Shown piece by piece: positions 29,493 through 32,900 of a stretch of 33,202 nt of DNA; within the stretch, counting starts at the first letter, position 1, and each line of letters begins with the position of its first letter. A program made the position numbers and the translations under genes. Below the pieces are notes generated by a model, which saw only the letters and a list, made by a program, of their open reading frames with translations, made no database searches and was not told the origin of the DNA. Location: contig CAIXZH010000102.1 in the NCBI GenBank assembly GCA_903923905.1, forward strand, positions 1-33,202. The letters are read 5' to 3'. The stretch is from an uncultured Bacteroidia bacterium. Its GTDB lineage: Bacteria > Bacteroidota > Bacteroidia > Bacteroidales > Prolixibacteraceae.

Positions 29493-30530
29493 ATGCGTTT
29501 CACCCGAAGAAAATTAAATCTATATGTCTTGAGAAGGAGAAAAACCATTTGGACATTCATAGAACTCCTGTCTTTATTAATTATTTTAGCACTTATTCAA
29601 GTCCAATGCCGGCATGACGGACTCAATGTTGCAACCCTTAAACCAGTTTGTTTTGATACCCAAATTGCGCCTATCTTCATAAATAATTGTGGAAGTTGCC
29701 ATAGCGCAAGCAGATCCAGAGGTGGATATTCATTTGTGGATTATACCTCAATCCTACAATCGGTAACTCCATATAATGCAGAAAAAAGCACTGCTTATCA
29801 AGCGATTACAGGGAAAGCATTTAAGCAATTAATGCCTCCTGGAATTCCGCTTTCAGAAAATGACCGCATCTTAATCCGAGTCTGGATTGACCAGGGAGCA
29901 TTAAAAACCACTTGTACTGCAGATACCACTGGCACAAGTGGTACAGGAGGTACAACACCGCCATCAGGTGGAACCGGTTCACTGGTTTGTTTTCAGAGAG
30001 ATATTCTGCCGGTTTTATTATCCTCATGTGGCACAACAGGTTGTCATAATCAGACTACAGCCAAAGAAGGTTATATCATTACAAGTTATGCCTCTGTTAT
30101 GAGTAATATGGTGGTGGCAGGTTCCCCAAACTCCAGCAGACTTTACACTGCTGTTGCCAATAATAATATGCCACCAAGCTCTTACGCTAAGTTAACCACT
30201 GCAGAAAAGGACAGTATCTATAATTGGATCAAGGATGGAGCACTTAATTCAACTTGTTCATCGTCATGTGATACCACCGGAACAGTCACCTATTCGAATC
30301 AGATAGTCGCTATTATGACTGCAAACTGTGTTTCATGCCATAGTGGTTCCTCTGCTCAAAAGGGAATACTTTTGGATAGTTATACTAACGTAAAAGCAAA
30401 TATGGATAATGGGAATATATTATCGGCCGTACGTGGGATAACTTTACAAATGCCACCAGGAGGTCTATTAACAAATTGTGAAATGCGTCAGCTTGAAATT
30501 TGGAAAGCCACTGGCGAAGTACAGAATTAA
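29493..30530 (+). CDS. Triple-domain cytochrome c-like envelope protein
   Basis: This 345-residue protein has an N-terminal hydrophobic segment (about 22-37) ending IQVQC, so Cys39 may be a weak lipobox, and it is otherwise likely periplasmic. It carries three related heme-binding repeats. C66-GS-C69-H70 pairs with M114-P-P. C179-GTTG-C184-H185, a CX4CH form, pairs with M226-P-P. C279-VS-C282-H283 pairs with M320-P-P. Each repeat is followed by an IWxxxG-like helix (RVWIDQGAL, YNWIKDGAL, EIWKATGEV). A Gly/Thr linker lies at about 145-163. This resembles planctomycete-type cytochrome c domains. ATG 29493 is the start, and a TTG at 29490 is unnecessary. It opens a five-gene operon. Confidence 0.85.
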   Translation: MRFTRRKLNLYVLRRRKTIWTFIELLSLLIILALIQVQCRHDGLNVATLKPVCFDTQIAPIFINNCGSCHSASRSRGGYSFVDYTSILQSVTPYNAEKSTAYQAITGKAFKQLMPPGIPLSENDRILIRVWIDQGALKTTCTADTTGTSGTGGTTPPSGGTGSLVCFQRDILPVLLSSCGTTGCHNQTTAKEGYIITSYASVMSNMVVAGSPNSSRLYTAVANNNMPPSSYAKLTTAEKDSIYNWIKDGALNSTCSSSCDTTGTVTYSNQIVAIMTANCVSCHSGSSAQKGILLDSYTNVKANMDNGNILSAVRGITLQMPPGGLLTNCEMRQLEIWKATGEVQN

Positions 30531-30539
30531 CTCAAAAAT

Positions 30540-30914
30540 ATGAAGAATTTAATTTTAGTAATTGTATTTTTCTCTCTTACCAGCTGCTATTATGACAGCG
30601 AAGAGGCTTTATATGGTACCCCAGGTTCAACTGTATGCGATACGACAGTTACTAATTTTAGTACCGTGATTCAACCAATCCTCTCCTCCAATTGCTGGGC
30701 ATGCCATTCAAACTCAGCGGGACCATCCAGCGGTGCAGGAGTTTTATTACAAAATTACACTGATGTAAAAACTTACGTCCAGAATGGTAAACTGATTGGC
30801 GATATTCAGCAGCTGTCAGGCTTTAATCAAATGCCCAAAGGGGGTATGAAACTAAGTGATTGTGATATACTTAAAATTCAAACCTGGATAAAAAAAGGAG
30901 CACTAAATAATTAA
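30540..30914 (+). CDS. Mono-heme cytochrome c-like lipoprotein
   Basis: This 124-residue protein starts with a lipoprotein signal (MKNLILVIVFFSLTSC), making Cys16 the likely lipidated residue. The mature part is a single copy of the cytochrome repeat seen in the preceding gene: C52-WA-C55-H56, a YTDVKTYVQNGKLIG segment, M98-P-K-G-G with the likely distal methionine, and a final helix IQTWIKKGAL. It resembles the third repeat of its neighbour, so the two may have arisen by duplication. It is nine bases from the upstream gene and four bases from the next, within one operon. It probably passes electrons or binds heme at the membrane surface, though acceptor and donor are unknown. Confidence 0.87.
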   Translation: MKNLILVIVFFSLTSCYYDSEEALYGTPGSTVCDTTVTNFSTVIQPILSSNCWACHSNSAGPSSGAGVLLQNYTDVKTYVQNGKLIGDIQQLSGFNQMPKGGMKLSDCDILKIQTWIKKGALNN

Positions 30915-30918
30915 ATTA

Positions 30919-31827
30919 ATGAAAATAAACTCGCTAAAATCTGTAATTATATTAGGATTAATAGTATTATTCTCTAATCAAGTCTGGAGCCAGGATCTTG
31001 ATTCCTTACTGGATAAGGAGATTAAACCACAAACAATTTATGCTGCCGCAACCTTCAAAGCTACCAGAATTGTCAATGGGCACTCAGTTGAGCAGATGAA
31101 AAAAAAACAGCTTGATTTTAGAATTTCGCATCGTTTTGGAGATATCAATTCAGGCTCCTATAATCTTTATGGATTGGATAATGGTTTAATTCATTTCTCG
31201 TTAGAATATGGTCTGACAGATTGGCTTGAAGTCGGAATTGGACGAAGTACCTATCAAAAAACATTCGATGGATTCGCAAAAGTCTCGATTCTCAGGCAAA
31301 CCAGCGGGGCTAAAAATATGCCAATTCATTTGACCTATTTATTTAGTACAGAGTATATTTCATTAAATACGGACACATTGATGAAAAATGCATATTCGCG
31401 AATGTCGTATATTCATCAAATTCTGATTGCCAGGAAGTTCAATGAGAGTCTTTCATTGCAGTTGACACCTACTGTCATTCACAGGAATCTTGTTCCAACA
31501 GAATTGGATAAGAACGACCTCCTTGCAATTGGGTTAGGTGGCCGATACAAGTTATCAAAGCGAATAGCCTTAAATGTTGAATATTACTATGTCTATCGAC
31601 CTAATGAAAAGGCAATCAGTCAATCGATTCCAACCCCTGTTAAATATTATAATCCGCTTTCAATTGGTATTGATATTGAAACTGGAGGACACGTTTTTCA
31701 GATTATGCTGACCAATTCACAGGCAATGCGCGAGGGTGGTTTTATCGGCAAAACTACTGAAACATGGAGTAACATGGGTATCCATCTGGGATTTAATATT
31801 TCAAGAGTTTTTTCATTTACAAAATAA
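30919..31827 (+). CDS. DUF5777-family predicted outer-membrane beta-barrel protein
   Basis: This 302-residue protein has a signal peptide (MKINSLKSVIILGLIVLFSN to about residue 25). It then matches, by memory, DUF5777, a Bacteroidetes family of beta-barrel-like outer-membrane proteins of unknown function. Typical stretches are LDFRISHRFGDINSGSYNLY near 66-85, FSLEYGLTDWLEVGIGRS near 93-110, and TGGHVFQIMLTNSQAMREGG near 254-273, ending GIHLGFNISRVFSF. Alternating hydrophobic and polar strands fit a barrel. Its place after two cytochrome-like genes suggests an outer-membrane partner of a redox module, but this is inference from order. The operon position is tight on both sides. Confidence 0.82.
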   Translation: MKINSLKSVIILGLIVLFSNQVWSQDLDSLLDKEIKPQTIYAAATFKATRIVNGHSVEQMKKKQLDFRISHRFGDINSGSYNLYGLDNGLIHFSLEYGLTDWLEVGIGRSTYQKTFDGFAKVSILRQTSGAKNMPIHLTYLFSTEYISLNTDTLMKNAYSRMSYIHQILIARKFNESLSLQLTPTVIHRNLVPTELDKNDLLAIGLGGRYKLSKRIALNVEYYYVYRPNEKAISQSIPTPVKYYNPLSIGIDIETGGHVFQIMLTNSQAMREGGFIGKTTETWSNMGIHLGFNISRVFSFTK

Positions 31828-31840
31828 TAATGCAATGGTT

Positions 31841-32389
31841 ATGAATAAGTTAATTCTCTATTTTGTCTTTAGTCTGATCGTTTTTAACGTACAGGCTCAA
31901 AACCGGTTTTTCACCAAAGATGCAAAAATCAATTTCAACTCTTCAACCTCTGTCGAGGACATTGTTGCAGAATCTAATCAGGCCACCACATTAATTGATA
32001 TTGATAAAAATGAAATTGCATTTTCAGTTTTAACTACCTCGTTTAAGTTTCGCCGGGCATTGATGGAAGAGCACTTTAATGAAAACTATATGGAATCGGT
32101 GAAATTTCCAAAGGCAAAGTTCAATGGGAAAATTATTTCTCCTATAGAGTGGAAAAGTGAAAAGGTGGTTCTGGTTGATGTTAAAGGAGTATTGACAATG
32201 CATGGTGTAAGCAATGAAATCATTTTAAAGGCTCAGATTATACCTGGAAAAAATAAAATTCTCGCCATAACAGAATTCAAAGTGATTCCTGAAGCTTTCG
32301 GCATATCAATTCCATCCGCAGTAAGAGATAAAATTGCAAAAGAGGTAACTATCAAAATTGATGCAGCTTACACCCCTTATCAACCATAA
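31841..32389 (+). CDS. YceI-family exported protein
   Basis: This 182-residue protein has a signal peptide (MNKLILYFVFSLIVFNVQAQ). I start at ATG 31841, with ATG 31835 also possible. An upstream in-frame ATG at 31736 overlaps the previous gene. The mature part fits the YceI lipocalin-like fold, whose known members bind isoprenoid chains such as those of polyprenyl quinones. Matching pieces are NFNSSTSVEDIVAESNQATT near the start, FKFRRALMEEHFNENYMESV near 67-86, FPKAKFNGKI, DVKGVLTMHGVSNEI near 124-138, and the final FKVIPEAFGISIP. Ligand identity cannot be told. Within the operon it could handle a quinone-like lipid for the cytochromes, which is speculative. Confidence 0.88.
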   Translation: MNKLILYFVFSLIVFNVQAQNRFFTKDAKINFNSSTSVEDIVAESNQATTLIDIDKNEIAFSVLTTSFKFRRALMEEHFNENYMESVKFPKAKFNGKIISPIEWKSEKVVLVDVKGVLTMHGVSNEIILKAQIIPGKNKILAITEFKVIPEAFGISIPSAVRDKIAKEVTIKIDAAYTPYQP

Positions 32390-32399
32390 AACTTTAAAT

Positions 32400-32843
32400 A
32401 TGACCAAAAGAAAAACGGTTCAATGGCTACTCTGGATTTTACTTATTGGATTGATTGCTGCGTTTTCTGCTATTTATTTTGCTTTTAATATGCCGCGCAG
32501 AAATCTTGCAAATGAAAATTCAGTTTACTTGCTATCCGCCAAACAGTTGATATCAGATTTTCGGAATGATGAGACGATTGCAACCAAAAAATATCTCGAT
32601 AAGGCTATAACAGTTACAGGTGAAATAAAAAGTATTAGAAATTTGGATAACCATAGTATCGTCTTTAGTCTGGAAGATGCAATGGAAGGTGTGAGCTGCA
32701 CTATCGATAGTGCAGATATTGTAACTTATGCCTCAAAACTTTTACATTATAAAACAGGGTCAAGAGGAACCTTTAAAGGGCGATGTTCAGGCATGCTTAT
32801 GGATATCCAGGTAATCAATTGTGTACCGGTTCAGGGAAACTAG
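32400..32843 (+). CDS. Anchored OB-fold protein, tRNA_anti-like
   Basis: This 147-residue protein has one N-terminal membrane segment (about 8-30, QWLLWILLIGLIAAFSAIYF). A small domain follows (about 55-147) resembling the tRNA_anti-like OB fold often found on exported Bacteroidetes proteins. The stretch KYLDKAITVTGEIKSIRNLD, an acidic loop, then YKTGSRGTFKGRCSG and the final VINCVPV fit its strands. The name of the family does not imply tRNA binding here. It starts at ATG 32400, ten bases after yceI. An in-frame ATG at 32358 would overlap the previous gene and weaken the signal anchor. It closes the operon, ahead of the terminator at 32864-32900. Confidence 0.78.
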   Translation: MTKRKTVQWLLWILLIGLIAAFSAIYFAFNMPRRNLANENSVYLLSAKQLISDFRNDETIATKKYLDKAITVTGEIKSIRNLDNHSIVFSLEDAMEGVSCTIDSADIVTYASKLLHYKTGSRGTFKGRCSGMLMDIQVINCVPVQGN

Positions 32844-32863: not shown

Positions 32864-32900
32864 AAATAGCTCATACAATTAAATGAATGAGCTATTTTTA
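32864..32900. terminator. Terminator of the cytochrome-DUF5777 operon
   Basis: A perfect 11-bp stem (AAATAGCTCAT/ATGAGCTATTT) with a 12-base loop is followed by TTTATTT. It lies 20 bases after the operon and just before the end of the minus-strand fragment, so it can act in both directions. Confidence 0.75.

Follow-up and report, generated by a model that had tools for sequence, protein, structure and literature searches.

In the Gram-negative bacteria studied, lipocalins of the YceI family occur in linkage or fusion with cytochrome b561 and counter lipid peroxidation, and most solved YceI structures contain an isoprenoid such as Ubi-8, according to the available part of the work on BcnA and LcoA (PMC9113575). 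Cyc2, in the accessible portion of PMC8406198, joins a small N-terminal cytochrome to an outer-membrane barrel. For the family DUF5777 (PF19089), Pfam describes only a membrane-bound beta barrel. The MtrAB and Pcc conduits comprise an outer-membrane barrel encoded beside haem proteins, with an enclosed multihaem wire. Here we analyse a stretch of 33,202 nucleotides (the window) from an uncultured Bacteroidia bacterium of the Prolixibacteraceae (assembly GCA_903923905.1, contig CAIXZH010000102.1), in which a DUF5777 gene lies in an operon with genes for two cytochrome c-like lipoproteins, a YceI-family lipocalin and an OB-fold protein, and we report that DUF5777 is accompanied across the Bacteroidota by one-electron carriers of exchangeable type. 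The five genes, termed g1 to g5, and their terminator are as follows.

g1: 29493-30530, + strand, 345 residues; putative lipoprotein with three cytochrome c domains
g1 haem motifs: CGSCH 29688-29702, CGTTGCH (CX4CH) 30027-30047 and CVSCH 30327-30341, + strand
g2: 30540-30914, + strand; small monohaem cytochrome c-like lipoprotein, with CWACH at 30693-30707
g3: 30919-31827, + strand; DUF5777, predicted 12-stranded outer-membrane barrel
g4: 31841-32389 (alternative ATG at 31835), + strand; YceI-family lipocalin with signal peptide
g5: 32400-32843, + strand; OB-fold (tRNA_anti-like) protein, with a single membrane helix at the N-terminus and conserved Cys100 and Cys129
Intrinsic terminator hairpin: 32864-32897, + strand; -15.3 kcal/mol, z -4.74

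The locus resembles BcnA-LcoA, as far as the available part of that description goes (PMC9113575), in that a YceI-family lipocalin stands beside a dedicated redox protein and gene fusions occur in both settings; it differs in that the partner of DUF5777 is a cytochrome c, Rieske protein or cupredoxin, that the core is an outer-membrane barrel, that the fusions join carrier to barrel rather than carrier to lipocalin, and that the five genes include no b561. The likeness to Cyc2, again as described in the accessible text (PMC8406198), lies in the small N-terminal cytochrome and the outer-membrane barrel, which are fused in two loci (L152 and L287), whereas the window's proteins are encoded by separate genes and DUF5777 also pairs with Rieske and copper carriers. 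This comparison with Cyc2 is one of descriptions. As in MtrAB and Pcc, the barrel is encoded beside haem proteins, but that of DUF5777 is much smaller, its partners are mono- to trihaem lipoproteins and there is no enclosed multihaem wire.

The initial annotation of this DNA, made from its letters alone, had described five tightly spaced genes for exported or anchored products, closed by a strong terminator, and this description holds. The open reading frames all lie on one strand (29493-32843) with gaps of 9, 4, 13 and 10 bases, and none of 200 shuffles folds as stably as the hairpin, although a simple hairpin scan restricted to loops of 3-8 did not list it. For export, g2 has a lipobox (LTSC), g1 has Cys39, and, judged by eye, g3 and g4 carry signal peptides and g5 a single N-terminal membrane helix. 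That the arrangement is seen across the phylum makes it more than chance.

In a sample of 296 Bacteroidota genomes, DUF5777 is present in 115, about two fifths, and in all 18 genomes of the window's genus, its own genome counted. We examined 122 of 139 strong DUF5777 places (the 139 being a hand count, with 17 left out and nine weak rows excluded), numbered as loci L###; contig ends cut three of them (L044, L089 and L143), leaving 119 uncut. The initial annotation had suggested surveying this neighbourhood and had asked whether DUF5777 genes elsewhere lack linkage to haem-motif genes. They do not: a redox protein lies within 3 kb in 113 of the 122 loci (113 of the 119 uncut), a cytochrome in 101, YceI in 102 and the OB-fold protein in 32. 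The partner is on the strand of DUF5777 in 106 of the 122, the nearest such partner at a median of 503 bp. At 240 control points in 20 stretches of the same genomes there were no cytochrome or Rieske matches (cupredoxin was not sought there), and YceI was found at five points, all a single gene; 328 control genes, checked by motif alone, were free of haem, Rieske and cupredoxin motifs. Of a further 80 named loci, taken from 578 confirmed ones and possibly overlapping the first sample in species, 72 had a redox partner, 68 had YceI and 58 had the OB-fold protein. Three loci titled Prolixibacteraceae (L174, L176 and L177) have the gene order of the window. Since they are present in 102 and 32 of the 122 loci, YceI and the OB-fold protein are accessory to the module, not part of its core.

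What, then, is constant in the partner? It is a cytochrome only in 99 of the 122 loci, a Rieske protein only in ten and a cupredoxin only in two; one locus has both Rieske protein and cytochrome, one both cupredoxin and cytochrome, and nine have none, giving Rieske proteins in 11 loci and cupredoxins in three. Pfam confirms Rieske in L096 (5.9e-9) and Copper-bind in L107 (8.3e-14), while the other Rieske calls rest on a profile from eight seeds and the other cupredoxin calls on a pattern. Partner type changes at least five times on the DUF5777 tree, and one single Rieske clade is rejected (approximately unbiased test, p-AU 2e-50) on a tree that keeps 54 of 121 rows, omits the long-branched L152 and L129 and was made when the first tree was already known. 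Because the carrier has been replaced repeatedly by unrelated redox folds, these sequences suggest that the electron, not haem, is the conserved feature of the module.

The fusions point the same way. In L152 and L287, one from each of two families, a single reading frame encodes a monohaem cytochrome domain followed by DUF5777, with cytochrome profile E values of 4.7e-13 (single-sequence search) and 2.1e-12; inspection of eight further long-frame or distant places for fusions yielded one, that in L287. The N-terminus of a DUF5777-type barrel would lie on the periplasmic side. That the barrel works with electrons is indicated most strongly by unrelated one-electron carriers in one slot, together with fusion, and the electron-transfer role first put forward for the operon is made likely by the two cytochrome-barrel fusions and by Rieske partners that do not form a clade.

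The outer-membrane barrel predicted at the outset is supported for g3, which matches DUF5777 over its full length (316.9 bits against a cut-off of 23.1, positions 1-247 of 247) and is predicted with high confidence to have 12 strands. It is similar to small-solute channels of the KdgM/NanC kind, with an OmpC model and OmpG as the top Foldseek rows; identity to the 12-stranded KdgM/NanC porins is 6-11%, and we know of no redox partners for these porins. To the Pfam description of DUF5777 the present analysis adds its conserved redox partnership. The barrel of Cyc2 has 16 strands, and a cytochrome domain is about 25 Å across. Given its 12 strands and its likeness to small-solute porins, the modelled barrel should by geometry be too narrow to enclose a cytochrome. 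Nor do the 12 predicted strands, set against the strand number generally known for MtrB, describe a large barrel enclosing a multihaem cytochrome; MtrB-like barrels were not among the structural matches listed for DUF5777, which is not taken as excluding them. The invariant H71 and H258 were considered as haem ligands and rejected, both being lipid-facing by strand phase and at opposite ends of the barrel.

We tentatively propose, at a likelihood just short of even, that the operon is a redox module around a narrow outer-membrane channel, that is, a redox-coupled channel. One-electron carriers, here g1 and g2, would dock at the periplasmic mouth of DUF5777 and swap electrons between the cytochrome c pool of the cell and a compound, small or lipophilic, that might reach them through or beside the barrel. 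YceI could ferry a quinone- or lipid-like molecule across the periplasm, a step that leans on the YceI-b561 link and the isoprenoid of solved structures in the available part of PMC9113575, and g5 may contribute from the inner membrane, where it would be held. An electron role is further supported by the NrfD, 4Fe-4S and EB_dh proteins and multihaem cytochromes that recur near a second type of DUF5777. COX1 is encoded in all 46 of the 115 DUF5777-positive genomes that were checked, and the window's genome encodes COX1 as well as an assembly protein for cytochrome c.

Several points weigh against this proposal. COX1 is also present in 18 of 24 DUF5777-negative genomes (Fisher p 0.001, kinship ignored). 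Six uncut loci (L081, L105, L111, L114, L125 and L129) have no recognised redox partner. The cytochrome profile was built from DUF5777 neighbours and then used to count neighbours; a motif-only count, which provides an independent check on it, finds no partner in 19 of 118 loci, many of these being missed open reading frames that were recovered by six-frame stretches. For the L152 fusion, Pfam at E 0.01 finds DUF5777 only and no cytochrome family, its cytochrome part resting on the motif and on the profile built here. Finally, conserved charges run along the predicted lumen of DUF5777, from which the modelled barrel could be closed.

The alternative that survives best is an antioxidant or quinone-recycling system like BcnA-LcoA, in which YceI would take up either lipid peroxyl radicals or oxidised quinone, re-reduction would come from the small carrier and the barrel would be accessory. 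The YceI family named by the initial annotation is secure for g4 (PF04264, 55.7 bits against a cut-off of 23.7), though sequence matches to solved YceI proteins are weak (best E 0.043). This alternative draws on the presence of YceI in 102 loci and on the b561 linkage, peroxidation protection and bound Ubi-8 reported in the accessible part of PMC9113575; any one-electron donor would suffice, which fits carrier exchange, and in some loci the gene immediately upstream encodes an extracytoplasmic function (ECF) sigma factor. Against it, 17 loci have a cytochrome without YceI, respiratory-type loci among them, the fusions link carrier to barrel and never to YceI, the operon's five genes include no b561, and the sigma link is weak, with such a gene within six genes in 27 of 118 loci compared with 2 of 20 control stretches. 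We regard it as unlikely. The anchored OB fold claimed for g5 is supported by its match to tRNA_anti-like (PF12869, 61.2 bits against a cut-off of 23.5) and its membrane helix; sequence searches up to E 1 gave no solved relative. Cys100 and Cys129 are conserved in more than 90% of 60 sequences, and a CcmE-like haem chaperone was set aside since no His is strongly conserved and only the cysteines stand out.

Haem motifs had been claimed for two genes, and both have them: each of the three motifs of g1, the middle one wider, is followed by a downstream MPP, and the single CWACH of g2 by MPK. By Pfam, g1 matches PSCyt1 (65 bits, cut-off 22) and Cytochrome_CBB3 (39.4, cut-off 27), and with CXnCH, distal Met and cytochrome fold it has the features of a c-type cytochrome. 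As g2 falls under all curated Pfam cut-offs (Cytochrome_CBB3 19.2 against 27, Cytochrom_C 18.9 against 21.3), its assignment rests on motif and alignment. Neither reaches the cut-off of 100 for the LIC11213 lipoprotein family (NF047812; g1 88.1, g2 32.3). The lipobox of g1, QVQC, is unusual, but g1 is probably a lipoprotein too, because Cys39 is invariant across 35 aligned sequences. Lipoproteins of the g1 type mostly have C-[KRT]-H-[DE] at the lipidated cysteine (29607-29618 in the window), with the His conserved in at least 90% of the 35 sequences. The domains of g1 are similar to FoxE and PccH, from which g1 differs in being a lipoprotein of three domains, the middle one with a CX4CH motif; the similarity to FoxE is not used as evidence for iron oxidation.

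Could the barrel and cytochromes move electrons across the outer membrane directly, to or from an external donor or acceptor, as in Cyc2? The fusions in L152 and L287 are consistent with such a conduit, as are the domains of g1 like FoxE and PccH, the collagen-like six-haem lipoproteins that adjoin the second type of DUF5777 in L003 and L110, and secreted proteins with type IX secretion system (T9SS) tails near some loci, which have either CxxCH inside a Temptin_C domain (L136, L140, L144 and L141) or a sub-threshold DOMON match. The 12-stranded model, set against a cytochrome domain of about 25 Å, argues otherwise, as do partners that are mostly monohaem, or Rieske or copper proteins, and not wires, and a distribution over 115 of 296 genomes, which we judge wide for extracellular respiration. 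The surface-export signal of lipoproteins, acidic residues after the lipidated Cys as given in the available part of PMC5080379, was counted at +2 to +6 in 79 partners caught by the lipobox pattern and 114 other lipoproteins: the means, 1.13 and 1.08, show no clear excess, though lipoproteins devoid of acidic residues there are fewer among the partners (12 of 79) than among the others (36 of 114), and surface exposure of the partners is thus not clearly supported. Of the porin-cytochrome likeness first suggested, the linkage of barrel and haem proteins stands, with the fusions added, and the narrow barrel and the lack of a clear export-signal excess do not fit it; we consider direct conduction improbable. 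A role of the cytochromes as sensors or barrel assembly factors, with no electron transfer at or across the membrane, would suit the sigma factor genes near some loci, but repeated swaps for unrelated redox folds would be strange if the role were structural, and we think it very improbable.

The genome's second DUF5777 copy (L003, on contig C47) falls on a separate branch of the tree. Its cluster (C47 3737-11047) encodes a six-haem lipoprotein with a collagen-like linker, a monohaem lipoprotein, the second DUF5777, monohaem cytochromes, a seven-haem protein, a small b561-like membrane protein (by eye) and a NapC-like six-haem protein. Relatives on this branch have a 4Fe-4S protein and NrfD beside DUF5777 (six loci by clustering, with Pfam on L113), and EB_dh is near in L110, L113 and L127, the last also with a COX1-family protein. 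This cluster and the loci of its branch look respiratory and lack YceI, which most other loci, the window's included, possess, often with the OB-fold protein. In L110, L113, L117, L118, L121 and L128, a protein of 82-89 residues, a 4Fe-4S protein, NrfD, a protein of about 290 residues and cytochromes adjoin DUF5777, and L110 and L113 have EB_dh upstream; the recurrent NrfD/4Fe-4S cluster may be an undescribed quinol dehydrogenase. In L118 (2563-8417), metal-efflux-type resistance-nodulation-division genes, CusA/CzcA-like (under the NCBIfam cut-off) with HlyD_D23 adaptors, lie directly upstream of the cytochrome-DUF5777 pair. A dihaem cytochrome family of about 340 residues adjoins DUF5777 in the YceI-free loci L055, L060, L119, L124, L126 and L137.

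T9SS-tailed secreted proteins also occur, with an ankyrin-repeat protein close by, near the DUF5777 module in L047, L058, L062, L070, L073 and L101, five of these six having a DOMON-like match under the cut-off. Directly upstream of the module, six loci (L046, L061, L064, L069, L096 and L105) encode an ECF sigma factor together with a protein whose C-terminal domain is an outer-membrane barrel and which is anti-sigma-like by position only. A conserved upstream Crp/Fnr box was considered and rejected, as the 75 upstream stretches searched have FNR-type boxes in none and a Crp-type box in one. A Bacteroidota-type promoter pattern occurs in a minority, six of the 75 against 0.73 in single-base shuffles, and there is none in the window.

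In the open-access literature searched, with most subscription journals and bioRxiv outside its scope, we found neither DUF5777 by name nor a description of a Bacteroidota module of YceI with cytochrome c or Rieske protein; the available part of PMC5429918 names a single YceI gene among tabulated expression data and does not treat the module. The DUF5777 gene cluster is common in the Bacteroidota yet uncharacterised, and it points to unknown outer-membrane electron chemistry. Taking the redox-coupled channel further, DUF5777 modules might form a new class of outer-membrane electron exchange in many aerobic Bacteroidota, with a narrow barrel, no enclosed haem wire and plug-in carriers (cytochrome c, Rieske, cupredoxin or fused cytochrome) through which electrons or a redox-active small molecule would pass, a generalisation we hold to be doubtful at present. 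We know of no system that covers redox chemistry of this kind. With the barrel in about two fifths of sampled genomes, the exchangeable carrier gives it a testable function and, if the proposal is true, common aerobic heterotrophs would perform outer-membrane redox chemistry of a new kind.

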